Origin: Planctomycetaceae bacterium
GTDB taxonomy: Bacteria; Planctomycetota; Planctomycetia; Pirellulales; Pirellulaceae
Reading direction: 5' to 3'
NCBI GenBank assembly: GCA_007694185.1
Contig: RECD01000160.1
Coordinates: 1-46,097, forward strand
DNA: 46,097 bases
Made by a program: the position numbers and the translations under genes. The notes beneath the pieces are model-generated. The model worked only from the letters and a program-made list of their open reading frames with translations. It ran no database searches and was not told where the DNA came from. Positions 8,308 to 28,854 of the stretch are shown piece after piece; position 1 is the first letter of the stretch, and each line of letters starts with the position of its first letter.

Positions 8308-8570
8308 CGGGTTCCTACCTTTGCGTGGGCGGAGCGGTTTCGGGGGCAACCCGTCGCGAGCGGGCAGGGTAAATAACGGGGATGACCCTCAGCGGATAAA
8401 CGGATCGATCACCGAAGTGAGCGGAATACCGCAGGCCGCCCCCCCTCCTTCAAGGGGAACCGAAAGTGATCTTCCGGTGATTTTAGGATTTTGACTAAAG
8501 TTTCGTCGACCCAGTTGCGCGGCGAGCGGGCTTGCGCATTCCAAACGAATGGCCAGGGAGGAGCCAAATC

Positions 8571-11500: not shown

Positions 11501-12116
11501 CACCCATCCACGCCAGGTCCGTGAAATCGAATCTTCCGTGTTGGTCGAAAGGGTGGAAGCCTTCCTCGGTACCGATGAAGGTGCCCGGATTCTGCGAGCG
11601 GGAACCGAGCAAGAAATCGCCCGGCTGACCCGCTGGCTGACCCAGGCCAAACGGGGGCCGTCAGTCGAGGGTGCATTGAAATTTTACCTGAGCCGCCGCA
11701 GCCCCGTTCAAGATGCCCCCTCGATCGGCCCCCGGATGGCCGAGCGACTGGCCAAGCAGCAGATCCGGACGGTGGATGACCTGCTCAAAGGGGATGCCGC
11801 CAAGATCGCTGCGGGGTTGAAGGTTCGTCAGGTCGATGAGACGACGGTTCGCGATTGGCAGCAGCAAGCGATGCTCGTCTGCCGCGTCCCGTTGCTCCGC
11901 GGTCACGACGCCCAATTGCTGGTCGCCGCCGGAATCACCCAGCCACAAAGGCTTGCCGAATGCGAACCGGCGGGGTTGCTCCGCAAGATCCAGCCGATCA
12001 GCCACAGCCGTGCCGGTAAGCGGATCCTTCGTGGCGGCAAGCAACCGGATCTGGCGGAGGTGACCGGTTGGATCCGACAGGCCCAGCGCCGACGGGAATT
12101 GCGGGCTGCCTCCTGA
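8571..12116 (+). CDS. SMC/Rad50-like coiled-coil ATPase with tandem DUF4332 tail
   Basis: 1181 residues from the ATG at 8571, which has an AGGGAGGAG ribosome-binding site 7 nt upstream; 13 upstream in-frame codons are ignored. The N-terminus has an AAA_23-like strand and a Walker A (APRGTGKT, residues 31-38). Residues 170-660 are Arg/Glu/Leu-rich helices, largely coiled coil, without a CxxC zinc hook. The second half-ATPase has a canonical LSGGR signature (679-683), a degenerate Walker B (LPLVVETP, 741-748, with Glu-Thr where Asp-Glu is usual) and an H-loop LTHDE (798-802). Residues from about 893 to 1022 and from 1038 to 1175 are two copies of a DUF4332 helix-hairpin-helix-like module, each ending in a ThrxTrpxRQAxRR-like helix. 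It probably binds DNA and acts in repair or chromosome maintenance, in keeping with divergent xseA/uvrC; this is inference. Resembles YhaN/RecF-type proteins. Confidence 0.8.
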   Translation: MLLERVDIDSHGPLKGIGLGPFSHQLNVIQAPRGTGKTAWIRFLRDSLTGTTPAGRGLAPSQGRVVWVAADGSYHCHRQPDGTEQGKRWVTFQSRSEFPPHSGHDRARVVIDVPARIVDGIVTDTLLNSLRHVVTAAIDAGLDRSPSEPWAGWPHTRQAEIVELQAELARLSERLRPSGMAEPRGDTRSTRTRLASLTLELSALDARREFSSKSDLLLSRRRDERRRLARIVEDVDGLRRRERELKERIVELDADLKSLEREARHDEILTAIAGLAHDRMRWLNRQVEAIRDLIGRVESLGASHATEPSAFALSDTTDRIASIGSTVDRLIGSLEADQRHWLEADSDDAPLGGDILTETDQAFRRQRRRAIGIDEPTERHVATDAAAQDHAWLEDPVRRSRIDSLRRSERRRRLHELTDGDASGLGTHGALLASLRSIAATLHGIAHRLTGIRPDPRADRSADGPPLVRQCLAELRTALSGLVQRRTELATRVARAQRLPLSLLEAIAAGDPLPLDGAAGEAANRSLGDLLDGDVAEVERTWTLGESPTIDDPAAWATVRSRREATRHRLETKRQELAEDIRRTVGRMTDKLTEAETLRRGQRDSLLVEPPGEDQQRRSELESEIRQLQTRLANPEQEAVRQRYQACWDRLGELQAGDDAVDLPTSPLAQAAGGYLERLSGGRLRDVRWQSSADLSTPTNRLAVTVDGQPADRMPEADRFLAVLAVRLAAADELAKRGRPLPLVVETPDFAQGAEANMHMAENGANGQLADPQPQATARHLVAVLAEAASRGRQVIVLTHDESLAAAIARFGGYAFGLNGRTRANTLVADDANREFDIDWRQTFQSDDSAATILPKSAPAAGPAVEEPQSVVPFPLNRHLDKPRRSGASRPPFFLTVDSPIERAPSINAAVATRLRSIGVAIISQLLEASPSRLAERLGLNKIDAATIRLWQQECKLVCGVRGLRAFDARVLVGCGITHPRQVREIESSVLVERVEAFLGTDEGARILRAGTEQEIARLTRWLTQAKRGPSVEGALKFYLSRRSPVQDAPSIGPRMAERLAKQQIRTVDDLLKGDAAKIAAGLKVRQVDETTVRDWQQQAMLVCRVPLLRGHDAQLLVAAGITQPQRLAECEPAGLLRKIQPISHSRAGKRILRGGKQPDLAEVTGWIRQAQRRRELRAAS

Positions 12117-13345: not shown

Positions 13346-15013
13346 TCATGCCGATACGACGGCCGGCCGATCACGCCGGCTCGCCCACCAACTGACCAGC
13401 GTCCCGACCGCTAGGTTCACGCCCAGCGCGAACGGCGCGATCCACTGAAAGGAGATCGGGTCTTCCGCGACATAGCGGGCCGTGCCGGAAACCGGATCGG
13501 CGATCAACCGCACCGTGGTTCCGAACAGGTCCGGATCGACCCCAAAATGGTTGATCAGCAGCCCGAACAGCGGCCCCGAAAAGGCGGTCACCGTCGCGGT
13601 GGTCACCCCCGCGATTGCCCCCAGCCAAACGCCGATCGGCCGGGCGAAAGGGACGAACATCGCGAAGAAAAACAGGGCGAAGATCGGCGTGGTCAGCAAA
13701 TTCGAAGTCTTTTGGGTGACGGCGGTGATGTTGCCGGGGATGATGCCCATCTGGGAACTGCCCAGGACGACGATCCCTCCGATCGTGAAGGCCAGGATCC
13801 GAGCGGTCCGGACGTGTGCCCGTTCGTCTCGCGGCGCCTTGCCGAAGCGGTCAAAAAAGTCGGTCAACACCACCGCGGTGATCGAATTGACCCCGGAGTC
13901 CATGCTCGACATCGCCGCGGCGAACATGGCGGCGACGACCAACCCCGCGATCCCGATCGGCAGGTGATGCGCGATGAAGTGCGGGAACAACGTGTCGGCG
14001 TTGTCTCGGACCGTCATCCCCTCCGGCAGCCGATCGGGGAAGCGGTTGAAGTAAGCGAGCAAAGCGAAGCCGACGAACGCCAGCGTCACGGCGACCAGCA
14101 ACGCGACCCCCAATTGGGTCGCGATCGCCCGCCGCGCCGCTTTCAGATCGGCGGTCGACATGAACCGCTGGACCGAAGTCTGATCACCACCCATCGTGCA
14201 GACTTGCCAAATGGTCATGTTCAGGATCGCGCCGACGATCGTGAGCCGCACCCGAGGATCGAAACTGAACAACGGTTGGCTGTCCCAATTCTCGTCCCAT
14301 TCGGTCGGCACCCAGCCGAACCCTCCGAAGGCATAAGTGACGGTGCCGAGCACGAGCAACGCCCCGCCGTACAGCAGCAACGATTGCATCAGGTCGGTGA
14401 TCACGACCGCCCGCAAGCCGCCGAGTGTCGTGTAGATGACGGAGATCGTCCCGGTCACCAACGCGACCCACGGGATGTACTGCGGACCGATCCCCATGAT
14501 TTCGGTCAACGCCCGAGAGGTCAGGTAGATCAGCAGCGACATCCAGACGAGCCGCAGCACGAGGAACATCACCGCGCCGAGCATCCGGACGCTCAGCCCC
14601 AGCCTTTCCTCGAGCAGTTCATAGGCGCTGGTGACGCGGCGGTGCATGTAGGCGGGTAGCAAGCCGAACGCGACGATCACGAAGACCAGCGGGAGGCCGA
14701 TGGCGTTGAGCATCATTCCCGGACCTTTGCCGGCCGCCTCTCCCGGCATCGACAAGTAGGAGATCGTGCTGAGCAGGGTCGCGAACAGCGACACCCCGAT
14801 CAGGATCGGGTTCATGTGGCCGCTGCCGACGAAGTATTCCTTGACAGTCGTCTGTTGGCGACTGAAGTACCACCCCAGCGCCAGGGTCGACGACGCGTAC
14901 ACCACGACGATCGCCCAATCGAGCGGGGCCAGCCCATCGGCTTTGTTGGTCAACACGTCGGCCATCGCGAGCAGCGGCAACGTCACCGACGCGTCGGGAG
15001 AATCGATCGGCAT
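13346..15013 (-). CDS. Sodium:solute symporter (SSS family)
   Basis: 555 residues from the ATG at 15013, which has an AGGGGA ribosome-binding site about 6 nt upstream; the open frame continues 47 codons further but without support. About 13-14 membrane helices are visible. Family features include the start of the transporter core (VVVYASSTLALGWYFSRQQT, residues about 37-56), a LLSTISYLSMPGEAAGKG stretch for TM2-3, the GGLRAVVITDLMQSLLL motif, and AMFAAAMSSMDSGVNSITAVV, the SSS signature with the Ser/Thr-rich sodium site. SSS proteins carry sugars, sialic acid, amino acids, carboxylates or polyols. The gene is divergent from a seven-gene catabolic run across 273 bp, so it probably imports that pathway's substrate (inference). 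A dyad that could be an operator lies 46 bp upstream of the start. Confidence 0.9.
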   Translation of the reverse strand: MPIDSPDASVTLPLLAMADVLTNKADGLAPLDWAIVVVYASSTLALGWYFSRQQTTVKEYFVGSGHMNPILIGVSLFATLLSTISYLSMPGEAAGKGPGMMLNAIGLPLVFVIVAFGLLPAYMHRRVTSAYELLEERLGLSVRMLGAVMFLVLRLVWMSLLIYLTSRALTEIMGIGPQYIPWVALVTGTISVIYTTLGGLRAVVITDLMQSLLLYGGALLVLGTVTYAFGGFGWVPTEWDENWDSQPLFSFDPRVRLTIVGAILNMTIWQVCTMGGDQTSVQRFMSTADLKAARRAIATQLGVALLVAVTLAFVGFALLAYFNRFPDRLPEGMTVRDNADTLFPHFIAHHLPIGIAGLVVAAMFAAAMSSMDSGVNSITAVVLTDFFDRFGKAPRDERAHVRTARILAFTIGGIVVLGSSQMGIIPGNITAVTQKTSNLLTTPIFALFFFAMFVPFARPIGVWLGAIAGVTTATVTAFSGPLFGLLINHFGVDPDLFGTTVRLIADPVSGTARYVAEDPISFQWIAPFALGVNLAVGTLVSWWASRRDRPAVVSA

Positions 15014-15058
15014 CCGGTTCCCCTGTCGGGACCATGTCAGGTTGGTGGAAAGGGCAGT

Positions 15059-15083
15059 CGAGTTCGCTAGCTTACCGAACTCG
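15059..15083. promoter_or_regulatory. Operator-like dyad between symporter and aldehyde dehydrogenase genes
   Basis: A perfect inverted repeat CGAGTTCG-N9-CGAACTCG lies in the divergent promoter region. Its spacer, read on the minus strand, contains GTAAGCTAG, a possible -10 for the symporter. A site of this form would suit a dimeric repressor controlling both directions, but no local regulator gene is present in the island. A hairpin in the symporter leader is the alternative. Confidence 0.4.
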
Positions 15084-15188
15084 TTGCGGCGATGGGGCGA
15101 GCGAGACAGAAACCGCTCGACCGACTCCCGAGACGGGCGGTACTGGCTGAGCACGGACGGGCGGAAACACGGGACCGGCGGGTACGGT

Positions 15189-15194
15189 TACAAT
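15189..15194 (+). promoter_or_regulatory. Candidate -10 element for the catabolic run
   Basis: TACAAT, preceded by GGT, about 93 bp before the aldehyde dehydrogenase start. No convincing -35 is seen 16-18 bp upstream, so this is a weak call based on the hexamer alone and on its place in the divergent region. Confidence 0.3.
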
Positions 15195-15205
15195 GCGTCG
15201 TCGTC

Positions 15206-15245
15206 CCCGTTCACCCGCCCTGCGGCCCGTTCACCCGCCCTGCGG
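15206..15245. repeat. Perfect tandem duplication of 20 bp
   Basis: Two exact adjacent copies of a 20-bp unit (CCCGTTCACCCGCCCTGCGG) at 15206-15225 and 15226-15245, in the probable untranslated leader of the aldehyde dehydrogenase gene, downstream of the candidate -10. It looks like a recent slippage duplication. Confidence 0.85.
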
Positions 15246-15286
15246 TATGCATACGGCCGATCCCTCCAAACCCTACCCGCGGCCCC

Positions 15287-16774
15287 ATGACCCGATCGAC
15301 GTTGCCCGCTTGGCCGACCCAGTTGTTCATCGACGGCAAGTGGGTTGACGGCAGTGGCGGACGAACCTGGTGCGTGACTAACCCGGCGACGGGCGAGGCC
15401 TTGGCCGATGTCGCGATCGCGGAAACGGCCGACGTCGACCTCGCCGTCCGCGCGGCGCGACGGGCGTTCGACGAGGGCCCGTGGCCGCGAATGGAACCGC
15501 TGGAACGAGGCCGGTTGCTGTTCCGTTTGGCCGAAAGGATTCGCCGCGATAACGAGGTGTTGGCGCTCACCGACACCCTGAATGTCGGCAAGCCGATCCG
15601 CGATACCCGCGGCTTCGACGTGCCCTGTGCCGCCAGCTTGTTCGAGAGCTACGCCGGGTTGGCCGATAAGATCGCGGGCAAGTGCTTCGGGACGTTGCCC
15701 GACAACGTGACGATGCAGTTCCGCGAACCGATGGGCGTGATCGCCGCGATCGTCCCTTGGAACTTTCCGCTGACCAACGCCGCGATCAAGTTGGCGCCGC
15801 TGTTGGCGTGCGGCAACACGGTGGTGCTGAAGCCGTCGGAGATCTCTCCGCTCTCCGCGCTGATGTTAGCGCAACTCGCCGCAGAGGTCGGCTTTCCGCC
15901 TGGGGTGATCAACGTGATCCACGGGACGGGAGCCGAGACCGGGTCGCCATTGGTCAGCCATCCCGGTGTCGACAAGATCACTTTCACCGGTCGGCATCAG
16001 ACCGGCGTCCAGATGCTGGAAGCGGCCAAGGTCGGCATGAAGGGGGTGATGCTGGAATTGGGCGGTAAGACCCCGAGCATCGTCTTTCCCGACGCGCCGA
16101 TCGAGCACGTCGTCAACGGCGTGATCACCGGGATCTTTTACAACCTCGGCCAAGTTTGCGTGGCCGGATCGCGGCTGTTGGTCAGCGAACAACAGCACGA
16201 CGAACTGCTCAGCCGAATCCTGGAACGGGTCCGGAACCTGCGGCAAGGCGATCCGACCGACGAAACGAATCACCTCGGGTGTTTGGCCACCCCGCAGCAT
16301 GGCGAGACGGTGGTGCGGATGGTCGACGAAGCGCACCACGAGGGGGCACGCTGCCTGCTCGGCGGCGTACCGTCCGATCGGTCCGACCCGAAATTCTTCC
16401 CGCCGACGATTTTCGACGGCCTACGGCCGGACATGGTTCTCGCTCGCCAAGAGGTGTTCGGTCCGGTCCTCGGCGTCATGACCTATCGTGACGAGGCCGA
16501 AGCGGTGCGGTTGGCGAACGATTGCGATTTCGGCCTGATGGCGAATGTCTGGACCCGTGACGGGACTCGCGCCTTGCGAGTCGCCCGACAGCTGCGAGCC
16601 GGCAAGGTGGCGATCAACGGCGGCGGGGCGCTGCGTCCGGGCGTCCCCGTTTTCGGTTACAAGATGAGCGGGATCGGTGCGGAACTGGGGTTTGACGAGG
16701 CGATCCACGAATACACCTGTTCCAAGGCCGTCGTCTATTCGCTCGCGGAGGAGAAATCAGCATGGCCGGAATGA
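15287..16774 (+). CDS. NAD(P)-dependent aldehyde dehydrogenase
   Basis: 495 residues from the ATG at 15287; 65 upstream codons of the open frame are non-family sequence that includes the 20-bp duplication, so they are left out. It oxidises an aldehyde to the carboxylate. The full family fold is present: PWNFPL with the catalytic Asn, LKPSE for NAD(P) binding, LELGGK with the general base E257, GQVCVAG with the nucleophile C291, and EVFGPVLGV. The Glu-Ile after LKPS does not settle NAD against NADP. Similarity is to the betaine-aldehyde/phenylacetaldehyde-type group. It is the first gene of a co-directional run, overlaps the next gene by 13 bp, and is divergent from a sodium:solute symporter. 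The aldehyde is likely made by the downstream aldolase or dehydrogenases (inference). A Shine-Dalgarno is not seen. Confidence 0.93.
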   Translation: MTRSTLPAWPTQLFIDGKWVDGSGGRTWCVTNPATGEALADVAIAETADVDLAVRAARRAFDEGPWPRMEPLERGRLLFRLAERIRRDNEVLALTDTLNVGKPIRDTRGFDVPCAASLFESYAGLADKIAGKCFGTLPDNVTMQFREPMGVIAAIVPWNFPLTNAAIKLAPLLACGNTVVLKPSEISPLSALMLAQLAAEVGFPPGVINVIHGTGAETGSPLVSHPGVDKITFTGRHQTGVQMLEAAKVGMKGVMLELGGKTPSIVFPDAPIEHVVNGVITGIFYNLGQVCVAGSRLLVSEQQHDELLSRILERVRNLRQGDPTDETNHLGCLATPQHGETVVRMVDEAHHEGARCLLGGVPSDRSDPKFFPPTIFDGLRPDMVLARQEVFGPVLGVMTYRDEAEAVRLANDCDFGLMANVWTRDGTRALRVARQLRAGKVAINGGGALRPGVPVFGYKMSGIGAELGFDEAIHEYTCSKAVVYSLAEEKSAWPE

Positions 16775-17916
16775 CCTCGCCGCCCGCCGCCGTCCCCGAG
16801 CCCGGTTTGTCCGAGACGTTGGTGTCTCCGAACGACCCGCGACTCGGCTTGCCGCTCGATCGGCTCGATACCCCTAGCCTGCTGCTCGATCGCGACGCCT
16901 GCGCCCGCAACCTTCGCCGGATGGCCGATTTCTTCGTCGACCGACCCGCTTCCCTGCGGCCCCATTTCAAGAATCACAAGTGCGTGACACTGGCTCGTCT
17001 GCAACTCGAAGCCGGGGCGGTGGGGATGACCTGTGCGAAGTTGGGTGAGGCCGAGGTGTTGGTCGAGCATGGCTTTCGCGACGTGTTGGTCGCCAACCAA
17101 ATCGTCGGCGAACCGAAAATGCGACGCTTGGCGGCGCTGGCCCGTCGGGCTGAGATCGGCGTGGCGGTCGATCATCCCGAACAGGTGGAAGCGATCTCCG
17201 CGGCGGCGGTCGCGGCCGGTTCGGTCGTCGGCGTCCTGGTCGAAGTGGACATCGGGATGGGGCGGTGTGGCGTGCAGCCCGGTGAGCCGGCACTCGAACT
17301 GGCACGTCGGATCCGGGATCTCCCCGGCGTCCGCTTCGACGGCTTGCAGGCCTTCGAAGGGCACCTGGTGAATGTGGTCGATCGGGCCGAGCGAGCCGAG
17401 CGGTCGGCCGAGGCGATGGGGCGAGCGGTGGTTACCCGTGAACGGATCGAATCGGCCGGCATTGCGGTCGGCAGGATTAGCGGCTGTTCCAGCGCGACTT
17501 ACGACGTGACCGGCGTGCTGTCGGGCGTCGATGAGGTTCAGGCCGGGACCTACGTGACGATGGATCGCCAATATCACAAGCTGGTTCCCGAATTCGAGAT
17601 CGCCCTCTCGGTCGGGGTGCGGGTGATCAGCCGTCCCGCCGCCGGCCGCGCCGTGCTGGACATCGGCGTCAAGGGAGCCGGTGGTGAGTTCGGGGTGCCG
17701 GGCATCCTGGGGCACGACGAGGTCGAAGTCCCCTTTTTCCTCTCGGAAGAGCACCTCGTCATACGCAACTCGCCCGACTGGCCGATCGGCCAAGTCCTGC
17801 AAATGATCCCGACCCACGCATGCACGACTTGCAACCTGCATCGCGAATTGGTCGTTCATCGACAGGGTCTGGTTGTCGACATCTGGCCGATCGAGGCTTC
17901 GGGTCGGTTGAGTTGA
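16762..17916 (+). CDS. D-threonine aldolase / D-serine dehydratase-like PLP enzyme (DSD1 family)
   Basis: 384 residues; the ATG at 16762 has GGAGGAG about 8-10 nt upstream, and a second ATG at 16771 is possible. Fold type III PLP enzyme: an alanine-racemase-like barrel with the Schiff-base lysine in RPHFKNHK (K70), then VGMTCAKLGEAEVLVEHG, LVEVDIGMGRCGV and YVTMDRQYH. A C-terminal domain has the metal-binding pair in PTHACTTCNLH (H352, C354), the form seen in D-serine dehydratases rather than the His-Asp of some D-threonine aldolases. Family members cleave or dehydrate beta-hydroxy D-amino acids, or beta-hydroxyaspartate. Which substrate applies is not readable here. It overlaps the aldehyde dehydrogenase gene by 13 bp, so the two are probably co-translated and may act in sequence. 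Confidence 0.85.
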   Translation: MAGMTSPPAAVPEPGLSETLVSPNDPRLGLPLDRLDTPSLLLDRDACARNLRRMADFFVDRPASLRPHFKNHKCVTLARLQLEAGAVGMTCAKLGEAEVLVEHGFRDVLVANQIVGEPKMRRLAALARRAEIGVAVDHPEQVEAISAAAVAAGSVVGVLVEVDIGMGRCGVQPGEPALELARRIRDLPGVRFDGLQAFEGHLVNVVDRAERAERSAEAMGRAVVTRERIESAGIAVGRISGCSSATYDVTGVLSGVDEVQAGTYVTMDRQYHKLVPEFEIALSVGVRVISRPAAGRAVLDIGVKGAGGEFGVPGILGHDEVEVPFFLSEEHLVIRNSPDWPIGQVLQMIPTHACTTCNLHRELVVHRQGLVVDIWPIEASGRLS

Positions 17917-17986
17917 GTTGAGGTCAGTCGGGCTCTGTCCGAATCGGTTTTGCTGCTTGGAAAATCAACGAAGAAGAGGTGTGGTG

Positions 17987-20311
17987 ATGGCCCATTTTCG
18001 AATCGCCTTGTGGGCGGTGATGACATTCGTTTGTGCCGCGGCCAGTTCGGCCTTCACGGTCGACGCGACGGAGCCCCGGCTGGTCGATGCCCGCAAGATC
18101 TGGGATCAGGCACCTCACAACGCGTTCACCGATTTGGTGCGGTTTCGCGACCGGTGGTTTTGTGTCTTTCGGGAGGGCCAAGGTCACGTTTCACCCGATG
18201 GCGCCCTGCGGGTGCTGACGTCCGAGGACGGCGAAACTTGGGAATCGGCCGCGCTGATCACTTCGCCGAATTCGGACCTTCGTGACGCCAAGATCACCGT
18301 CACCCCCGCCGGCCAATTGATGCTTTGCGGGGCCGAGGCGATGCATGACCAGACGGAGAAGACCCATCAATCGCTCGCTTGGTTCAGTGACGACGGGTAC
18401 ACCTGGACCGACAAGCACGAGATCGGCGACCCGAACTTTTGGTTGTGGCGGGTCACGTGGCATGGTGATCAGGCCTACGGCGTCGGCTACGCCTGCGGGC
18501 CGGCCGACCGTTCGGTGCGGTTGTACTCAAGCCGCGACGGCAAAACCTTCGAAACGCTCGTCCCCAATTTGTTCTCAGAAGGTTACCCCAACGAGACGGC
18601 GATCGTGATGGACGGTGACACCGCCTATTGCCTCCTTCGCCGTGACGGCACACCCAACACCGGCCTGATCGGTGTCGCCCAGCCGCCCTACACCGATTGG
18701 CAGTGGCAGGACTTGGGCGTGCGGATCGGCGGCCCACACATGATCCGGTTGCCCGACGGCCGCATGGTCGCCGCGGTACGGTTGTACGACGGTGGCGCGA
18801 GAACTTCACTCTGTTGGCTCGACCCCGAAGCGGCGACGCTCACCGAATTCCTCAAGCTTCCGTCTGGGGGCGACACCAGCTACGCGGGACTGGTCTTTCA
18901 TGACGAGCGGTTGTGGGTCAGCTACTATTCCTCCCACGAAGGGAAGACCAGCATTTATTTGGCGCGGGTCGAATTGCCGAGCGACGTGATCGACGTCGGA
19001 TCGCGACGGGAATTGTTTGTCGACGATTACCTGGTCGCCGACCATTCCGGTTGGGACTGGGTGCTGCAGCGGCCGGAGCCTCAAGAGGTCTCCTTGGTTT
19101 GTGACGAGCCGTGGGAAGGGAACACGTCGGCCTACTACTCGATCTTCGCCGATGACGATCGTTTCCGCATGTATTACCGCGGCTCTCATTGGGACGTGGA
19201 CGCGAAACGCTCGGTTCACCCCGAGTTCACCTGTTACGCCGAAAGTCGGGACGGCATTCACTGGACCAAGCCGGAATTGGGGTTGTTCGAGTTCCGAGGT
19301 TCCAAAGCGAACAACATCGTTTGGGCGGGTGACAGCACGCACAACTTCACGCCGTTCAAGGACGCCAACCCGGACTGCCCGCCCGCGGCCCGTTACAAGG
19401 CGTTGGCGGGTTCGGCGGTCCGTTGGAAGGGCGAAGGCCTGATCGCTTTTCAGTCGCCCGATGGTCTGAAGTGGTCTCGGATGCGGCAGGAGGCGGTGAT
19501 CACGGTCGGCGATTTCGATTCCCAGAACCTCGCCTTCTGGGATTCGACACGCGGGCGTTACCTCGCCTATCACCGCAAGTTTCGCGACGGCGTCCGGGAC
19601 ATCATGGTCGCTTCATCGACCGACTTCCTGAATTGGACGGAGCCGGAATATTTGAAATATGGGGACGCCCCCGAAGAGCAGCTCTACACGAACGCGATCC
19701 GCCCTTACTTTCGGGCACCACACCTGCTCGTCGGCTTTCCCACCCGCTTTCAGCCGAAGAATCAGCAGGTCGAGCCGGTGTTGATGACCAGCCGCGACGC
19801 GAAGAATTTTCGCCGCTGGCCCGAGCCGCTGATCCCGATCGACGCCCCGCAAGATCGCGACGGCAATCGCAGCAATTACATGACCTCGGCGCTGTTGTCG
19901 CTGCCCGACCGCCCTCGCGAGATGTCGGTCTACGCGACGGAAGCCTACTACGAGGGCCCCGGCAGTCGCGTGCGGCGGTTTAGCTTTCGCACCGACGGGT
20001 TTGTGGCCTTGAAATCGGGTCCGGCGGGGGGAGAACTGGTCACCCGGCCGCTCCGCTTCGATGGTGACCGGTTGCAAGTCAACTTCCGCACCGCTGACGC
20101 CGCTGGCATCCGCGTCGAATTGCAGGACGTCGCCGGGCAGCCGATCCCGGGGTTTTCCTTAGACGATTGCCGGCCTCTGGTCGGTGACGAGATCGACGGC
20201 CCCGTCGTCTGGGGGGCCGGCAAAACGCTGGCCGACCTGGCGGGACAGCCGGTCCGAATCCGATTCGTCGGCCGCGATGCCGATCTGTTCGCCTTCGTGT
20301 TCACCCGTTAG
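17987..20311 (+). CDS. Secreted double beta-propeller protein, sialidase/glycosidase-like
   Basis: 774 residues from the ATG at 17987, which follows an AGAGGTG ribosome-binding site; 23 upstream codons are dropped. A Sec signal peptide is at residues 4-24. The N-terminal part (to about 325) is a sialidase-like propeller with Asp-box-like repeats: SEDGETW (about 78), SDDGYTW (about 134), SSRDGKTF (about 182). The C-terminal part starts with IDVGSRRELFVDDYLV (about 330) and is a second propeller, with ESRDGIHW (about 418) and QSPDGLKW (about 487), that planctomycetes often encode as a separate protein. The last 90 residues are a small beta domain. It probably acts outside the cytoplasm on a glycan, but catalytic residues cannot be assigned. 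It lies 70 bp after the DSD1-like gene and 84 bp before the aldolase. Confidence 0.75.
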   Translation: MAHFRIALWAVMTFVCAAASSAFTVDATEPRLVDARKIWDQAPHNAFTDLVRFRDRWFCVFREGQGHVSPDGALRVLTSEDGETWESAALITSPNSDLRDAKITVTPAGQLMLCGAEAMHDQTEKTHQSLAWFSDDGYTWTDKHEIGDPNFWLWRVTWHGDQAYGVGYACGPADRSVRLYSSRDGKTFETLVPNLFSEGYPNETAIVMDGDTAYCLLRRDGTPNTGLIGVAQPPYTDWQWQDLGVRIGGPHMIRLPDGRMVAAVRLYDGGARTSLCWLDPEAATLTEFLKLPSGGDTSYAGLVFHDERLWVSYYSSHEGKTSIYLARVELPSDVIDVGSRRELFVDDYLVADHSGWDWVLQRPEPQEVSLVCDEPWEGNTSAYYSIFADDDRFRMYYRGSHWDVDAKRSVHPEFTCYAESRDGIHWTKPELGLFEFRGSKANNIVWAGDSTHNFTPFKDANPDCPPAARYKALAGSAVRWKGEGLIAFQSPDGLKWSRMRQEAVITVGDFDSQNLAFWDSTRGRYLAYHRKFRDGVRDIMVASSTDFLNWTEPEYLKYGDAPEEQLYTNAIRPYFRAPHLLVGFPTRFQPKNQQVEPVLMTSRDAKNFRRWPEPLIPIDAPQDRDGNRSNYMTSALLSLPDRPREMSVYATEAYYEGPGSRVRRFSFRTDGFVALKSGPAGGELVTRPLRFDGDRLQVNFRTADAAGIRVELQDVAGQPIPGFSLDDCRPLVGDEIDGPVVWGAGKTLADLAGQPVRIRFVGRDADLFAFVFTR

Positions 20312-20395
20312 AACGATGCGCGGCACCGGCGATCCCGCCGGGCCGCGCGACCGCCTGTGGTCCGCCCTCTGAACACCCATCAAGGAAATCGCCGC

Positions 20396-21223
20396 ATGCG
20401 GTTCAGTCGCATCAAAGCCAAATTGGCGCAGGGTCAACCGACCCTGATCACCTGTTGCCATTTCACCGACCCCAGCGTCTATGAGATGGTGAGTCTGCTC
20501 GGGTTTGACGGCATCTGGCTCGATCTGGAACATCACTCCACCAGTGATGAAACGGCCGCGACGCTGATGCGTGCCGCCCGCGTGGGCACCTCGGACATGG
20601 TCGTTCGTCCCGCTAAGGGCGAATTCATGCGGATCGGCCGGATCCTGGAAGCCGGCGCGCAAGGCATCATGTACCCGCGGTGCGAATCGGCGGAGGAGGC
20701 GGAGGAACTGGTTCGCTGGGCCAAGTTCGCCCCGCAAGGGGCGCGGGGTGTCGACGGGGCCGGCGCCGACAACCCGTACTGCATGCTGCCGATGCCCGAA
20801 TACTTGCAAGCGGCCAACGAACAGACGCTGCTGATCACGCAGCTCGAATCGCCCGCCGCCCTCGATGCCGTCGACGCGATCGCCCACGTTCCCGGGGTCG
20901 ACGTGTTGATGATCGGCCCGGGAGACTTGAGTGTCATCGCGGGCATCCCGTATCAATTCGATCATCCGCTGATCCAGGACGCTTACCAACGCGTGGCCGC
21001 CGCCGCGGAGCGAGCCGGCAAGTCGTGGGGGACGACCAGCGGCGGGCCGGAACATTCGCGACGCCTGCTCGATCTCGGCGCGAGGTTCATCTGCCACGGG
21101 GCGGACATCATCATGGTCAAGCGGGGGATGGAAGCCATCCAACAGGACTACGCGCCGCTCGGGTTCATGTTCGACAACCGGGTTCCCGCGTTGACCGAAG
21201 AACTCCGCCGTGCGGTCAGTTGA
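20396..21223 (+). CDS. HpcH/HpaI-type 2-oxo-acid aldolase
   Basis: 275 residues; the ATG at 20396 has AAGGAA about 8 nt upstream, and the longer GTG-started frame is not supported. Class II, divalent-metal pyruvate aldolase that cleaves 2-keto-3-deoxy sugar acids or 4-hydroxy-2-oxo acids to pyruvate plus an aldehyde. Family residues are present: DLEHHSTS with the histidine base (H46/H47), VVRPAKGE with the substrate-binding arginine (R71), QLESP with a metal Glu (E151), and GPGDLS with a metal Asp (D177). A gap of only 3 bp separates it from the aldo/keto reductase gene. In this run the product aldehyde could be the substrate of the aldehyde dehydrogenase, which is an inference from context. 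Confidence 0.9.
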   Translation: MRFSRIKAKLAQGQPTLITCCHFTDPSVYEMVSLLGFDGIWLDLEHHSTSDETAATLMRAARVGTSDMVVRPAKGEFMRIGRILEAGAQGIMYPRCESAEEAEELVRWAKFAPQGARGVDGAGADNPYCMLPMPEYLQAANEQTLLITQLESPAALDAVDAIAHVPGVDVLMIGPGDLSVIAGIPYQFDHPLIQDAYQRVAAAAERAGKSWGTTSGGPEHSRRLLDLGARFICHGADIIMVKRGMEAIQQDYAPLGFMFDNRVPALTEELRRAVS

Positions 21224-21226
21224 GCG

Positions 21227-22177
21227 ATGAACGTCGGCCGCCAAACGGATCGTTCGCTCAGCCGTCTGATGATCGGGACGGTCCAGTTCGGCTTGCCCTA
21301 CGGGGTTGCCAACCGGACCGGCCAACCGACTTATGCCCAGGTGGTCGAGATGGTCGCTGTGGCGTTGGAATCGGGCGTCAACGGCTTCGACACCGCCGCC
21401 GCCTACGGCACGAGCGAACAGGTGCTGGGTCGGGCTTTGTCGGAATTGCGAGCCACCGATCGGGTGACCGTTGTCACCAAGGTGATCCCGTTGGAACCTG
21501 CCCAACGCTCGGATCGCTCGGCGGCTGCGCAGACGATCCGAGATTCGGTCGACAGGTCGCGTGAAGCCCTCCGGATCGATCGCCTGCCGTTGGTGCTGTT
21601 TCATCGGGCCGAGGACGTCGTCCACGCGGATGTGCTACAGGAATTGGTCGATCGCGGCCGCGTCGCCGCGTGGGGCGTTTCGGCTGACCATGATCCGGCG
21701 GTCGCGCTCCGGTTGCTGGCCGATAGTCGGATTTCCTCGTTGCAATTGCCCGGCAATCTGCTCGACCGGCGACACCAAATGGCGGACGTTTTTCGGCAAG
21801 CCGAGTCGGCGGGTGTGACGACTTTTTTGCGCAGCGTCTACCTGCAGGGGCTGTTGAGGATGCCGGCATCCGAGGTGCCGGCCAACCTGCGCGAAGCCTT
21901 GCCGGTCCGCGAACGCCTCGACGCGGTCGCTCGCCGATACGGCCTCACCTTAGGCGAACTGGCGGTACGCTACGTTTTGTCTCAGCCGGGCATCGGCCCG
22001 CTGGTCGTCGGCGTCGAAACCGTCGGGCAACTGCGGGACAATTTGGAGGTGTTCGGCCGCGGCCCGTTGGCGGCGGAGATCCTCGAGGCGGTCGATGCCA
22101 TCGAGATCGACTTGCCCGATCGGGTGTTGACCCCGTCTCGTTGGAATGAGTCCCCCGCAGCCAGTGATTCTCGCTGA
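21227..22177 (+). CDS. Aldo/keto reductase
   Basis: 316 residues. NADPH-dependent carbonyl reductase/sugar-alcohol oxidoreductase with the catalytic tetrad in place: GFDTAAAYG (D55, Y60), VVTKV (K85) and LVLFHRAED (H126). The C-terminal cofactor-binding strand ends with PLVVGVETVGQLRDNLE. It belongs to the group of aldo/keto reductases seen in catabolic clusters of planctomycetes and of COG0667 type; the substrate is unknown. The start ATG at 21227 lies 3 bp after the aldolase stop codon and has no clear ribosome-binding site, so it is probably coupled to it. It may reduce or oxidise an intermediate of the shared pathway. Confidence 0.9.
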   Translation: MNVGRQTDRSLSRLMIGTVQFGLPYGVANRTGQPTYAQVVEMVAVALESGVNGFDTAAAYGTSEQVLGRALSELRATDRVTVVTKVIPLEPAQRSDRSAAAQTIRDSVDRSREALRIDRLPLVLFHRAEDVVHADVLQELVDRGRVAAWGVSADHDPAVALRLLADSRISSLQLPGNLLDRRHQMADVFRQAESAGVTTFLRSVYLQGLLRMPASEVPANLREALPVRERLDAVARRYGLTLGELAVRYVLSQPGIGPLVVGVETVGQLRDNLEVFGRGPLAAEILEAVDAIEIDLPDRVLTPSRWNESPAASDSR

Positions 22178-22231
22178 GTATCGGCATTCCTGCCCGCTTC
22201 GCATCCACCCTTGCAAACCACGGAATCGCAG

Positions 22232-22987
22232 ATGGACATGGAAACTTGGAAAGCGGAATTCGATCAGCTTGGGTTCGTCGTCATCCGAGGCTTTTTGGAA
22301 GGGGACGCGCTAGCAGAGCTGCGACATGAGTTGGCGAGATACGTTCGTGAGGTCGGACCGCGTCTGTCCGACCGTGACGCCTTTTACGACGACCCGGCGC
22401 GGCCCGAGACGCTGCGACAGCTCCACCGAATGGAACAGGACGCGTTCTTCGCGGAATACCTGCGAAACCCGCTGTGGAATCGGACGGCCAGGCAGTTGCT
22501 CGGCGAACCGGTGCGCACCCCGGATGGGGCCGAATGGTTCAACAAGCCGCCCGGTTCCCATTCCCCGACGCCACCGCACCAAGACAATCACTACTTCTGC
22601 CTGACGCCGCCGCAGGTCTTGACGATCTGGTTGGCGCTCGACGACGTCGACGAAGAAAACGGTTGCCTGCGCTACGTCAGCAGATCACACCTCCATGGCA
22701 TGCGTCCTCATGCGCGGACGCAAACGCTCGGTTTCTCGCAAGGGATAGCCGATTTTGGTGAGGCTGACCTAACTGCTGAAATCGCCGTTCGCGCTGCTCC
22801 CGGAGACGCGCTGATCCATCATGGCAATACGATTCACCGGGCGGAAGCGAACCGGTCGACGTCCCGTCACCGACGCAGTTTTGCGATGGTGTTTCGCGGC
22901 GAAAGTTGCACACGGGATGAGGCCGCTTTGGCTCGGTATCAGGATTCCTTGCGGACGCAACAGGCCGAACTGATCGGTGGTGCCTGA
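22232..22987 (+). CDS. Phytanoyl-CoA dioxygenase (PhyH) family protein
   Basis: 251 residues from the ATG at 22232 (an ATG two codons later is possible; a TTG at 22211 is less likely). A cupin/jelly-roll Fe(II)- and 2-oxoglutarate-dependent oxygenase. The iron-binding triad is in PPHQDNHYF (H116, D118) and NTIHRAEAN (H202), followed by SRHRRSFA with the arginine that binds 2-oxoglutarate. GFVVIRGFL at the N-terminus is the usual start of PhyH domains. Substrates in the family range from CoA thioesters to small amines and phosphonates. Here it lies 54 bp after the aldo/keto reductase and 50 bp before the SDR gene in the same direction. It probably hydroxylates a pathway intermediate; the substrate is unknown. 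Confidence 0.85.
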   Translation: MDMETWKAEFDQLGFVVIRGFLEGDALAELRHELARYVREVGPRLSDRDAFYDDPARPETLRQLHRMEQDAFFAEYLRNPLWNRTARQLLGEPVRTPDGAEWFNKPPGSHSPTPPHQDNHYFCLTPPQVLTIWLALDDVDEENGCLRYVSRSHLHGMRPHARTQTLGFSQGIADFGEADLTAEIAVRAAPGDALIHHGNTIHRAEANRSTSRHRRSFAMVFRGESCTRDEAALARYQDSLRTQQAELIGGA

Positions 22988-23037
22988 AGACGCCGCTGCC
23001 CACCCCCTTGCCCACCTTCCCTTTTGAAAAGCCGAAA

Positions 23038-23871
23038 ATGTCTGACCTTCCATCGGCCGCTGCCGAACCGGCACCGACCATCAGCCAACTGTTTGACCTT
23101 TCTGGGCGCGTCGCATTGATCACCGGGGCCCGGGGCCATTTGGGCCGGGCGATGGCAGACGCTTTGGCCGAAGCCGGGGCGCGGGTGATCGTGTCGAGTC
23201 GTGATCCCGCGGCAGCGGAGTCGTTGGCCCGAGGATTGGCCGGTGCCCAGGCTCGGGGGCATTTCGGCGTCCGCATCGACCAACTCGATCCGGCATCGAT
23301 CGACCAAGGGTTCGACGCCGCGGTCGAGCGTGCCGGGCGGATCGATATCCTGATCAACAACGGTCACGATGGGCTCGGGCGAGATTGGGAGTCGGTCACG
23401 GCGGAGGAGTTCCAACGGCAACTGGGCAACCTGACGGGTTACTTCCTGCTGGCGAGACGATTTCGCGATCACGTGCATGGCACCGCCGACGGTTCCCCAC
23501 GAAGCGGCAGCCTGATCCTGATCGGCTCGATGTACGGACTGGTCGGCTCCTACCCGGATGCCTACGAAGGGATTTGCTCTGCCAGTCCCGCGGCCTACCA
23601 CGCGCTCAAAGGGGGCATCATCCAACTGACGCGTCACCTGGCCGTCTACTGGGCCCCCGACGGGATTCGGGTCAACTGCCTCAGTCCCGGTCCGTTCCCG
23701 GGGCCCGCGGCGCCGACCGAAATGGTCCGGCGGTTGGAGGCCAAATCACCGATGAAACGGATGGGGAGCCCCCATGAACTGAAAGGGGCGATCGCGTTTC
23801 TCGCCTCGGACGCTTCCAGCTATTTCACCGGTCAGAACCTGGTTGTCGACGGCGGCTGGACCGCCTGGTGA
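23038..23871 (+). CDS. Short-chain dehydrogenase/reductase (SDR)
   Basis: 277 residues from the ATG at 23038; the TTG ten codons earlier is not favoured. Classical SDR with the nucleotide motif TGARGHLG (residues 29-36), a catalytic Ser in IGSMYG (S164), and the YxxxK pair in AAYHALKGG (Y187, K191), plus IRVNCLSPGP and the C-terminal TGQNLVVDGG. The usual NNAG is NNGHDG here, a small deviation. It is like gluconate/KDG-type or 3-oxoacyl reductases; the substrate is not known. Last gene of the plus-strand run, ending 107 bp from the convergent metallophosphoesterase gene. Confidence 0.92.
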   Translation: MSDLPSAAAEPAPTISQLFDLSGRVALITGARGHLGRAMADALAEAGARVIVSSRDPAAAESLARGLAGAQARGHFGVRIDQLDPASIDQGFDAAVERAGRIDILINNGHDGLGRDWESVTAEEFQRQLGNLTGYFLLARRFRDHVHGTADGSPRSGSLILIGSMYGLVGSYPDAYEGICSASPAAYHALKGGIIQLTRHLAVYWAPDGIRVNCLSPGPFPGPAAPTEMVRRLEAKSPMKRMGSPHELKGAIAFLASDASSYFTGQNLVVDGGWTAW

Positions 23872-23876
23872 GGCGG

Positions 23877-23963
23877 CGGCGATAACGCCGACAGCTCAAG
23901 AAGATGACCGATCGTGGGGTCGAGCTGAGGGTTCGGCCGTGCGTCACCAACGAAGGGTGGTGA
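23877..23963. terminator. Weak hairpins between convergent genes
   Basis: The gap between two convergent genes holds CGGCG-ATAA-CGCCG (23877-23890) and TCACCA-8-TGGTGA (23944-23963). Both are short and neither is followed by a T-run, so a bidirectional terminator is only suggested. Confidence 0.25.
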
Positions 23964-23977
23964 AGGCGGCGGATCCG

Positions 23978-24871
23978 TTAGGCCGGCCATTGGTAGGGCG
24001 CCTGTCGGCGAAAACCCTCGATCCGGATTTCGCCGCCGGGAAAGAGACTGGCCAGGGCGTAACCGCTGTTCTCAGGCCCGGAACCTTCGACCATCGCCAC
24101 GAGGGTGCAATAGAAGATTTGGCCGATTTGCTTCAGCTCGTTCTTGTGACTGTGGCCTTGGAAAACCGCCAGGACCTTGCCGGAGGCTTCTAGCAGTTCA
24201 CGGACTTGAGCAGCATTCTTGACACCGTGGTTGTTGGTGACGTCGAGCCGTTGGTGGGCGAAGACGACCGTCGGTTTGGTGTTCGCCGCCAAGTCACCGC
24301 GGAGCCATTCGAGTTCCGCCGGCGGGACATTCGGGTCGGTCCATTGGAAGTTGCGACGGCCGTAGGGCTCGCCATCGCTGCGGAAGCAGGAATCGAGCAC
24401 GATGAAATGAAAGTCACCGCGATCGAACGAGTAGTACGACCGCTCCCGCTCGATCTCCGCGAGGAACTCGGGCTTGGTCAGCGTATCGACGCAGTGGTTC
24501 CCCAGCACGTAATGGCGATCGGCGGCGATCTGTGAAAACGGGGCGTTGATCGTTCGCAAGTACCGTCGCTCGACCTCGACGTCCGCAGCGGCGTCGATGA
24601 GGTCACCGAGTTCGACCAGAAAGTCGGGCCGGCGTTCGCGAAGCAGCTCGCCGGCTTCGGCCAGCTTGTCGAGCGTTTCGCGGTAGTGTCGGGTGCCCGC
24701 GGGCGATTTGTCGGCGTAGTGCAGATCGGTCATCAGGCCGATCCGCAAGGCGGGGGCGGTTGCCTCGCCACGAGCCGGGCGGTGAGCAAAGGTTGCGGCC
24801 GCAGCGGAGAGCACCAGCGCGCCATCACGGAAGAAGGCGCGACGATTCGAATGAGGCTGTGCGCGGTTCAT
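23978..24871 (-). CDS. Tat-exported metallophosphoesterase
   Basis: 297 residues; the ATG at 24871 overlaps the stop codon of the upstream gene as ATGA, which decides the start over the TTG at 24883. A twin-arginine signal is visible (SNRRAFFRDG, then an Ala-rich core to about residue 33), so the protein is exported folded. The calcineurin-like two-metal site is complete: DLHY, LGDLID, LGNHCVD, AHQR and GHSHKNE. The family includes phosphodiesterases and phosphatases; the Ser/Cys context gives no substrate. It is coupled to a Gfo/Idh/MocA gene and converges with the SDR gene. It may remove phosphate from an extracellular substrate, which is inference. Confidence 0.9.
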   Translation of the reverse strand: MNRAQPHSNRRAFFRDGALVLSAAAATFAHRPARGEATAPALRIGLMTDLHYADKSPAGTRHYRETLDKLAEAGELLRERRPDFLVELGDLIDAAADVEVERRYLRTINAPFSQIAADRHYVLGNHCVDTLTKPEFLAEIERERSYYSFDRGDFHFIVLDSCFRSDGEPYGRRNFQWTDPNVPPAELEWLRGDLAANTKPTVVFAHQRLDVTNNHGVKNAAQVRELLEASGKVLAVFQGHSHKNELKQIGQIFYCTLVAMVEGSGPENSGYALASLFPGGEIRIEGFRRQAPYQWPA

Positions 24872-26214
24872 CCGACCTTCCAAGGTCCACGGTAATCACG
24901 GGTCAACCAGGCCGGGTCGCCGCCGGATTCGAACTTGCGTGCCTGCGGGTCCCAGCGGAAGCTGGCGTCATGCCAATAGGCCAGATTCATCAGGTGGCAG
25001 GAGATCACCGAATTCGCCCCGATCGCGACGTCACAGATCGGCAGTTTCCGGGTCTTCAGCGATTCGAGCCAATCGGTCTGATGGTTCTGGCTTTGATAGA
25101 GCCGCACCTTGGCGTCGGACAAGAACTGTTTTTCGGCTGCCTCACAGGCTTCGGCGAGCGTCTTTTGGCGATCGTCTTGGTCGTTGAAAAAACGGTGAAC
25201 CGGTTGGCCGTCGAGGATCAATTCGAACCTGCCGCGGTTGACGTGAACTTCGCCCTCGCTGCCGAAGAACGACACCCCTTTGCCGTCGGCGTGGGTCAAC
25301 GTGACGCCGTTTTCGTAAACGAGTTGCGCGCCCCGTTTGGCGTTGGCGCCCGGTGAGATCACTTCGACGGGCCCCGATTCGTCGACGCCCAAGCCCCATT
25401 GGGCGATGTCGATGTGGTGGGCGCCCCAATCGGTGATCATCCCGCCGCCGAACTCGCGGGTCATTCGCCAATTCGGGAAATGGTTGTGGACGCCGCGGGG
25501 GCTGAGGATCTCGTTGTAGGGCTTGAGCGGCCCGGGGCCACACCACATGTCCCAATCGAGTCCCGGTTCTGGCGGATCTTCCCCGAGCGAATAGACCGGG
25601 GCGGGATCACCGAAGGAGGTGGTTACCGATTTGACCTCCCCGATCACGCCGTTGCGGACTAACTCACAAGCCGTCCGGAACTCACGACTGGACCGCTGTT
25701 GGGAACCGGTCTGCAAAATCTTGTCGGCCTGGCGGACCGCCTGGGTCAACGCGACCGCTTCGTGGATGTTATGAGTCAGCGGTTTTTCACAGTAGACATC
25801 CTTGCCGGCCTGGACCGCCGCGATCGCCTGAATCGCGTGCCAGTGGTCCGGCGTGGCGATCACGACGGCGTCGATGTCCGAGCGGTCCAGCAGTTCGCGG
25901 AAGTCGTTGTAAGCGGCGCAGTCTCGTGATTCCTTGCCCTGCTTCTTCGAGTAATGCTCGTTGACCCGATCTTGGGCATGAAGTCGGCGGGTCGTGTCGA
26001 CGTCGCAGACCGCGACGACTTGGGTTTGTTCGCGCCCCAGAAAGTTACCGAGATGCCCGGCGTTCATCCGTCCCATGCCGATGAAGCCGAGGTTGATCCG
26101 CGAGTTGGCTGGGGCTTGCGCCGAAACGCCGTGCGAGGTCAGGATTAGCGGCGCTGCGGCGATCGCGGTGGAGCTGTGGAGGAAGCGACGGCGTGAAAGG
26201 TCGGTGCGTGTCAT
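24868..26214 (-). CDS. Tat-exported Gfo/Idh/MocA oxidoreductase
   Basis: 448 residues from the ATG at 26214. A twin-arginine signal (SRRRFLHSS, then an Ala/Leu core) is at residues 7-32. An N-terminal Rossmann domain has GFIGMGRMN, and the family lysine is in YCEKPLTHN. The C-terminal domain has the planctomycete-type DWGAHHIDIAQW motif. Secreted members of this family are very numerous in planctomycetes and probably oxidise or reduce sugars or act as glycosidases with NAD; the substrate here is unknown. The stop overlaps the next gene's start by 4 bp (ATGA), so the oxidoreductase and the metallophosphoesterase are translationally coupled. Confidence 0.92.
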   Translation of the reverse strand: MTRTDLSRRRFLHSSTAIAAAPLILTSHGVSAQAPANSRINLGFIGMGRMNAGHLGNFLGREQTQVVAVCDVDTTRRLHAQDRVNEHYSKKQGKESRDCAAYNDFRELLDRSDIDAVVIATPDHWHAIQAIAAVQAGKDVYCEKPLTHNIHEAVALTQAVRQADKILQTGSQQRSSREFRTACELVRNGVIGEVKSVTTSFGDPAPVYSLGEDPPEPGLDWDMWCGPGPLKPYNEILSPRGVHNHFPNWRMTREFGGGMITDWGAHHIDIAQWGLGVDESGPVEVISPGANAKRGAQLVYENGVTLTHADGKGVSFFGSEGEVHVNRGRFELILDGQPVHRFFNDQDDRQKTLAEACEAAEKQFLSDAKVRLYQSQNHQTDWLESLKTRKLPICDVAIGANSVISCHLMNLAYWHDASFRWDPQARKFESGGDPAWLTRDYRGPWKVG

Positions 26215-28674: not shown

Positions 28675-28854
28675 GCCCTCGCTCGTGAGTGATTGTCGGC
28701 GAACGGGGGAGCGTGGCGGAATGCCCGCGATCGGATGTTGTCAGCCACGCCGCGTGTTAAACTGCGGTCCCCGACCAGCGGTCGCCGGATGACGCGTGCC
28801 CCTGCCAACGCATCCGAGACTGGTCCCCGCCTTCAGCACCTGAGAGACGCAGCC

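Follow-up and report, generated by a model that had tools for sequence, protein, structure and literature searches.

What does a planctomycete take up and break down with a sodium:solute symporter (SSF) and the run of seven genes that diverges from it? The locus lies on contig RECD01000160.1 of a Planctomycetaceae bacterium (assembly GCA_007694185.1); the window, meaning the whole stretch of 46,097 nucleotides that was analysed, is one entire contig of a 5.8-Mb genome in 288 contigs. The run encodes an aldehyde dehydrogenase (ALDH), a DSD1-like fold-type III pyridoxal phosphate (PLP) enzyme, called DSD1 below, a secreted two-propeller protein, an HpcH/HpaI-type class II pyruvate aldolase (HPCH), an aldo/keto reductase (AKR), a PhyH-family Fe(II)/2-oxoglutarate oxygenase and a short-chain dehydrogenase (SDR). 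Planctomycetes possess very many genes for the breakdown of complex glycans, and to our knowledge few of the intracellular routes that complete this breakdown have been described. It is proposed, with a probability of about 0.4, that the symporter and the seven-gene run form a module that breaks down a 2-amino-2-deoxy sugar acid or its parent amino sugar without a phosphorylation step. The substrate of this pathway, each of its reactions and the direction in which it runs are inferred.

The symporter and the run are a real and conserved unit, and probably a catabolic one. When one genome per species was scanned for 84,980 species, relatives of the aldolase were found encoded in 170 stretches; the best 80 of these were kept, comprising, by their titles, 75 from Planctomycetota, four from Verrucomicrobiota (L127, L130, L132 and L133) and one from an organism named only as a bacterium (L121). 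Among these 80 stretches, and in the aldolase tree, the nearest named relatives of the window aldolase are Planctomycetaceae. The loci compared here number 103 (the window, L062, L081-L101 and L106-L185), or 93 after removal of ten repeats of a genome, with L062 and L083, which come from one contig, both counted; their genes were labelled by homology with seed sequences, and the counts of conserved residues given below include the duplicate loci. Many loci are cut at contig ends and absences are therefore soft. Locus L106 has the order DSD1-propeller-aldolase-AKR-PhyH-SDR, identical to that of the window, with identities of 74, 79/80, 85, 62, 69 and 77%, respectively. Larger versions occur in L111 (SSF-ALDH-DSD1-3HCDH-PROPn-HPCH-GFO3-PHYH-HEAT-SDR-AT3, where GFO3 is a small Gfo/Idh oxidoreductase) and in L062 (SSF-DSD1-PROP-PHYH-GFO3-SDR-AT3, with the aldolase some 13 kb distant but on the same contig, in genome G013), and these include the symporter, a GntR-FCD regulator, a class III aminotransferase, an amidohydrolase and extra propellers. 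Mosaic versions of the gene set surround the aldolase clade in many Planctomycetota and in the four Verrucomicrobiota. Across the 93 loci the aldolase is labelled in 92, GFO3 in 58, the SDR in 47, PhyH in 27, the aminotransferase AT3 in 23, the amidohydrolase AMH2a in 21, the symporter in 17 (for example L062, L111, L121, L122 and L117), 3HCDH in 17, DSD1 in ten, its paralogue DSD1b in eight, the AKR in seven and the ALDH in five.

Co-occurrence within the order points the same way. Among 146 genomes including that of the window, 28 carry a member of the aldolase clade (250 bits or more), 21 the SDR (E at most 1e-60) and 12 a close PhyH (250 bits or more); aldolase and SDR occur together in 18 genomes (hypergeometric 3e-13) and aldolase and PhyH in 11 (2e-8), both values being uncorrected for relatedness. 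SDR relatives of 55-66% identity travel with the aldolase. Regulators of the GntR/FCD or GntR-LacI type are found in loci of relatives, which fits with catabolism. The initial annotation had read the locus as one of import and breakdown and had made this depend on gene order being shared with relatives; the order is kept in L106 and others, and the reading survives as a single conserved, catabolic-looking cluster with a symporter and a retro-aldol aldolase. Two of its parts, the class of the PLP enzyme and the membership of a nearby Gfo/Idh-phosphoesterase pair, do not survive and are dealt with below.

DSD1 is, on its active-site residues, better read as an ammonia-lyase of the D-serine dehydratase type than as an aldolase, and is proposed to be a 2-amino-2-deoxyaldonate ammonia-lyase. 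Among solved chains, two D-threonine aldolases come nearest to it (236 bits for AxDTA, 4v15, and 230 bits for the second), followed by BhcC (186) and D-serine dehydratase (114). The PLP lysine in the R-P-H-x-K motif, a trait of D-threonine aldolases, is kept (Lys70; 10 of 10 DSD1 sequences). The metal site, however, is the dehydratase-type His-x-Cys in all ten (His352-x-Cys354 in the window) and not the His-x-Asp seen in the three solved D-threonine/hydroxyaspartate aldolases that align over it. The aldolase base His193, a histidine in all four solved aldolases aligned there, corresponds to Asn204 in the window and to Asn or Tyr in eight relatives, so that nine of the ten DSD1 sequences have a residue other than His. 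The paralogue DSD1b in aldolase loci follows the same pattern (His-x-Cys in 8/8, His at the 193 position in 0/8), and among 14 aligned family members the window clade of four and one other have His-x-Cys, the rest being Tyr-x-Asp members of other clades. According to the AxDTA paper, the dehydratase holds its metal by His and Cys, AxDTA by His and Asp, and His193 is absent from the dehydratase (PMC4401734). DSD1 thus resembles the chicken D-serine dehydratase (3anu) in family, PLP lysine motif and His-x-Cys site with a score of 114 bits, and is nearer overall to AxDTA but without its Asp349 and His193. With a His-x-Cys metal site and both aldolase signature residues missing, DSD1 is therefore read as an ammonia-lyase. 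The earlier label of a D-amino-acid-type PLP enzyme accordingly gives way to that of a dehydratase or ammonia-lyase with a His/Cys site, an example of family names alone being misleading.

The same similarities are the starting point of an alternative in which the locus serves the catabolism of beta-hydroxy-D-amino acids. DSD1 would then act as a PLP retro-aldolase that yields glycine and an aldehyde for the ALDH, and the HpcH aldolase would work on a parallel hydroxy-keto acid. The D-threonine aldolases as nearest solved chains, the BhcC aldolase as the best NCBIfam model of DSD1 (248.6 bits, cut-off 690) and the overlap of the ALDH gene with that of DSD1 speak for it. Both aldolase signature positions are altered, however, and the published contrast between dehydratase and aldolase sites (PMC4401734) also runs counter to it, so that this alternative is regarded as unlikely. 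A beta-hydroxyaspartate cycle was dropped separately, the BhcC model concerned (NF045642) being matched far under its cut-off.

A variant module built on DSD1b and an Amidohydro_2 protein (AMH2b), with varying M19 dipeptidase, 3HCDH and DHDPS genes, was encountered in L081, L095, L096, L099, L100, L127, L130, L132 and L204. It lies near GFO3-SDR except in L096, and L204 has DSD1b-AMH2b-M19-GFO3-SDR without the aldolase. Pyridoxine degradation was considered and rejected, since the FHMPC dehydrogenase match of the 3HCDH protein in L111 reaches 193 bits against a cut-off of 500.

In the proposed breakdown of an amino sugar acid, the secreted two-propeller protein would act extracellularly, trimming a glycan or glycoside, and the product would enter the cell through the symporter. 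The AKR (a Gfo/Idh in many relatives), perhaps together with the SDR, might oxidise the sugar towards the acid, and PhyH might hydroxylate or dealkylate a decorated form of the substrate; these roles before deamination (AKR or GFO3, SDR, PhyH and propellers) are guesses by family. DSD1 would strip water and ammonia from a 2-amino-3-hydroxy acid to give a 2-keto-3-deoxy acid, the HpcH/HpaI aldolase would split the latter into pyruvate and a short aldehyde, and the ALDH, whose gene overlaps that of DSD1 by 13 bp, would oxidise this aldehyde. A substrate of DSD1 must carry an amino group at C2 with a hydroxyl at C3, and for the aldolase the product must have a hydroxyl at C4 (a 4-hydroxy-2-keto acid); the substrate would therefore be a 2-amino-2-deoxyaldonate. 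As a dehydratase or ammonia-lyase, DSD1 would thus fill the dehydratase step of a sugar-acid pathway and replace the IlvD- or enolase-type dehydratase of ordinary routes; textbook pathways employ a metal-cluster enzyme at this point. The module is a concrete and testable route with two reporter steps, the release of ammonia by the PLP enzyme and of pyruvate by the aldolase.

The sequence of the aldolase agrees with the cleavage assigned to it. Residues that align with the catalytic set of HpaI are kept in between 100/101 and 102/102 loci (H59 in 101/101; R84, E164 and D190 in 102/102), and the protein is like the HpaI and GarL aldolases (4b5s, 1dxe) in family and in these residues. It falls short of the NCBIfam equivalog cut-offs of GarL and HpaI (150.7 against 406.75 and 146.3 against 368.8 bits), which leaves the likeness at family level. 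Directly downstream of the aldolase, GFO3 is found in 53 of 92 loci and the AKR in six, namely the window and five relatives; the seventh AKR (L118) does not adjoin the aldolase. AKR and GFO3 are together in none of the 93 loci (Fisher p 7e-4, uncorrected for relatedness). The AKR holds the position of GFO3 and never occurs with it, and therefore looks like a substitute for GFO3 behind the aldolase. A quick-method aldolase tree, in which L118 was given no AKR/GFO3 state, has two changes between the states, and thus one or two swaps, with low support (25) around the window, L120 and L126. GFO3 was not found in the genome of the window at 1e-20 in a search that had no positive control, and no AKR relative at 1e-30 was found in the other 145 genomes of the order, with at most 15 candidates scored per genome. 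The swap is a natural experiment on the role of the oxidation step. It also belongs to a wider and rather doubtful proposal, that an amino-sugar pathway which is oxidative, involves no phosphorylation and has so far gone undescribed is widespread in Planctomycetota and Verrucomicrobiota. In this pathway an HpcH/HpaI aldolase would receive its substrate from a PLP ammonia-lyase, and the sugar would be oxidised by interchangeable Gfo/Idh or AKR enzymes at the same operon position.

The frequencies of the genes can also be taken to mean that the module takes up and oxidises a plain, non-amino sugar acid or hydroxy acid and that the PLP enzyme has a subsidiary task, for example the removal of D-serine or D-threonine. 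GFO3 (58/93) and the SDR (47/93) are far more frequent than a DSD1-type gene (18/93), and the best NCBIfam-level models of the SDR are gluconate 5-dehydrogenase and glucose 1-dehydrogenase. This is judged improbable. The ten proteins of Table 1 contain no Pfam match to an IlvD/EDD or enolase-type dehydratase, the canonical trait of sugar-acid routes, and DSD1 overlaps the ALDH and remains in the gene run in several lineages. The 13-bp overlap of ALDH and DSD1, starting ATGGCCGGA, recurs in all four loci in which the two are labelled as neighbours (the window, L111, L122 and L126), the DSD1 start in L126, which lies inside a longer open reading frame (ORF), having been chosen by the analyst. 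The ALDH adjoining DSD1 in L111, L122 and L126 is 73-77% identical to that of the window. Further genes of the ALDH cluster fell under the threshold in L174 and L182, the one in L174 being confirmed by Pfam.

The secreted 797-aa protein has a Pfam match only to BNR_2, at 24.8 against a cut-off of 31.4. An AlphaFold model of the whole protein, built on a 19-sequence alignment, has two propellers (mean predicted local distance difference test, pLDDT, 88.5), in line with the double propeller described earlier. Its N half superimposes on sialidase-type propellers with, among the matches listed, VIA Z scores of 29.5-33.5 over 286-303 residues, a root mean square deviation of 2.4-3.2 and identities of 9-19%, and the top listed match is to a protein from Dyadobacter that is itself uncharacterised. 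A separate model of the C half (mean pLDDT 75.4) matches GH32, GH43, GH130 and GH117 propellers with Z up to 19.8 and many ties, and this half is predicted to be a GH32/43/130-like propeller plus a beta-sandwich; its profile gives no more than a weak match among solved sequences, to beta-1,2-mannobiose phosphorylase (E 0.003). The halves are one gene in five of the ten non-duplicate loci that have the N half and separate genes in many relatives, and across the order most matches to the protein span one half only.

The sialidase fold of the N half raises the scavenging of an ulosonic or sialic-type acid. This half would free a 2-keto-3-deoxy acid, the symporter would import it, the aldolase would cut first, the ALDH, AKR and SDR would oxidise the freed (amino) sugar and DSD1 would deaminate the resulting acid. 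The enzyme by which Ruminococcus gnavus converts anhydro-sialic acid is reportedly a Gfo/Idh protein. That the organism turns anhydro-sialic acid back into sialic acid inside the cell is described in PMC7535918 and lends this scheme some plausibility. A single-sequence search with the whole propeller protein, however, returned no solved sialidase at E up to 1, the arginine of an Arg-Ile-Pro motif could not be placed by eye, without superposition, among the invariant residues of the N half, and a NanA/DHDPS-type aldolase is absent among the 20 window proteins scanned; the chances of this scheme are accordingly put low. A canonical GH33 sialidase, whose criterion we take to be an Arg triad with Arg-Ile-Pro, Tyr/Glu and Asp, was also dropped for the N half, the likeness being one of fold only.

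Several observations weigh against the breakdown of an amino sugar acid. By whole-sequence similarity DSD1 is closest to aldolases, and in L122 it retains His at the His193 position, the sole one of ten to do so. Neither DSD1 nor DSD1b is present in 75 of the 93 loci as fetched, of which many are cut at contig ends, and the aldolase is therefore not tied to the PLP step as an obligate partner; in genomes G062 and G122 the nearest relatives of DSD1 (68 and 59%, respectively) lie away from other module genes. PhyH is without a clear role in the pathway. Among the ten proteins there is neither the deacetylase expected for N-acetylated substrates nor the aminotransferase, amidohydrolase and regulator of the larger versions, an AT3-type fusion and an FCD regulator being encoded elsewhere in the genome. 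Finally, the cluster in L121 ends with a protein of the PGA_cap capsule-synthesis type (237.8 bits).

This last protein also favours a role in building or modifying a glycan, whether at the surface or secreted, instead of catabolism. The mixture of PhyH, AKR and class III aminotransferase is known from surface-sugar clusters, and the first two are present in the module, while relatives add an aminotransferase of class III that is GSAM-like. Against this stand the symporter, GntR-type regulators and secreted glycosidase-fold proteins of the module and its relatives, the sulfatase upstream in L121 and the lack of a glycosyltransferase or cytidylyltransferase among the proteins scanned, which are part of the genes of the loci. 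Such a role is therefore considered very improbable, and catabolism of an amino sugar acid is retained as the preferred reading.

The features are collected in Table 1. The ORFs were found again at the coordinates, strands and spacing of the initial annotation, which had a symporter divergent from seven co-directional genes with gaps of -13 to +84, and its ten families hold, with Pfam scores at or above the curated cut-off for all but the propeller protein. The catalytic residues it reported are likewise present in HPCH, AKR, PhyH, SDR and ALDH and kept in relatives, including PhyH His123, Asp125 and His209 (30/30), SDR Ser174, Tyr197 and Lys201 (49/49) and ALDH Glu322 and Cys356 in long-ORF numbering (5/5).

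Table 1. Genes of the symporter locus and the convergent pair in the window
Feature	Position	Strand	Evidence
Sodium:solute symporter (SSF), divergent	13346..15013	-	PF00474 127.7 bits; TIGR00813 195 bits; likely start ATG 15013 or 14965
Aldehyde dehydrogenase (ALDH)	15287..16774	+	PF00171 (Aldedh) 509 bits
DSD1-like fold-type III PLP enzyme, His352-x-Cys354	16762..17916	+	PF01168 (Ala_racemase_N) 97 bits; PF14031 (D-ser_dehydrat) 59 bits
Secreted two-propeller protein, 797 aa	17987..20311	+	AlphaFold model; BNR_2 sub-threshold
HpcH/HpaI-type class II pyruvate aldolase (HPCH)	20396..21223	+	PF03328 91.1 bits (cut-off 25)
Aldo/keto reductase (AKR)	21227..22177	+	PF00248 (Aldo_ket_red) 143 bits
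PhyH-family Fe(II)/2-oxoglutarate oxygenase	22211..22987	+	PF05721 122 bits
Short-chain dehydrogenase (SDR)	23008..23871	+	adh_short_C2 147 bits
Calcineurin-type phosphoesterase, judged outside the module	23978..24883	-	Metallophos 52 bits
Secreted Gfo/Idh oxidoreductase, judged outside the module	24868..26214	-	GFO_IDH_MocA 82 bits

Within the run the gaps are -13 bp (ALDH-DSD1), +1 with TTG 17918 or +70 with ATG 17987 (DSD1-propeller), +84 with ATG 20396 (propeller-aldolase), +3 (aldolase-AKR), +33 (AKR-PhyH) and +20, or +50 with ATG 23038 (PhyH-SDR). The most likely start of the ALDH is 15287 rather than 15092, given that the long ORF matches Aldedh only from residue 84 onwards, and the divergent intergenic region between symporter and ALDH is about 270-320 bp. 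Scans of the sequence gave no excess of promoter-like sites (1 against a shuffle mean of 1.0) or terminator-like sites (8 against 7.8). A long antisense ORF crosses the aldolase (20159-21625, minus strand) and is favoured over the true gene by a simple codon-bias caller, which calls for caution in the automatic annotation of such genomes.

The Gfo/Idh and phosphoesterase genes had been counted as a coupled pair belonging to the island. Their ORFs do overlap by 16 bp (24868-24883) and converge on the run, and twin-arginine-like motifs are seen by eye at both N termini. Phosphoesterase relatives of 53-66% identity occur in 20 of the 145 other genomes of the order. The window Gfo/Idh was found beside the phosphoesterase in none of eight genomes (tblastn, at least 80 bits), a search that other Gfo/Idh families would escape and that covered flanks of 1.5 kb for seven loci and 3-5 kb for four, with three genomes in both sets. 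The pair is not conserved with the module, and its membership of the island was rejected.

Elsewhere in the genome, contig C209 (L218:8825-11269, minus strand) encodes an 814-aa fusion. One half is amidohydrolase-like by a tblastn match of 29% only, and the other, which Pfam confirms, is a GSAM-like class III aminotransferase; amidohydrolase and aminotransferase genes of this type occur in 21/93 and 23/93 aldolase loci, respectively. Contig C17 (L212:496-6782) has an FCD-GntR regulator, DUF1559, DUF1501 and a second two-propeller protein in a row, possibly a second locus of the same regulon. The window further encodes, all on the plus strand, a 1194-aa protein (8532-12116) that ends in a DUF4332/helix-hairpin-helix region and whose N-terminus looks, by eye, like an SMC/RecN-like ATPase, an 876-aa protein (28693-31323) that resembles alkaline ceramidase at its N-terminus and is an alpha/beta hydrolase at its C-terminus, and an APH-type kinase domain fused with an AAA_33 domain (31320-32948).

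No account of this gene set was found in a literature search of open-licence PMC papers. The nearest precedent is the ong chitin-oxidation cluster of Pseudoalteromonas prydzensis, in which a symporter accompanies a fold-type III PLP deaminase that converts glucosaminate to 2-keto-3-deoxygluconate (KDG) and also deaminates D-serine and D-threonine (PMC9537276). The trait in common, an SSS symporter with a fold-type III PLP enzyme, is shared at family level only. The ong cluster has KDG phosphorylation (KdgK), the GH20-type OngA, a deacetylase, a RidA protein and TonB receptors. The window instead has the HpcH/HpaI aldolase and the ALDH with AKR, SDR, PhyH and the two-propeller protein, and GH20, a GlcNAc1A deacetylase, a RidA protein and a KDG kinase, or indeed any kinase, are all absent among the ten proteins. 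Non-phosphorylative sugar-acid routes (Dahms/Weimberg, rhamnose/fucose type) follow a logic of dehydrogenase, 2-keto-3-deoxy acid, aldolase and aldehyde dehydrogenase. The window shares this logic, and the slot of the dehydratase would be held by a PLP ammonia-lyase.

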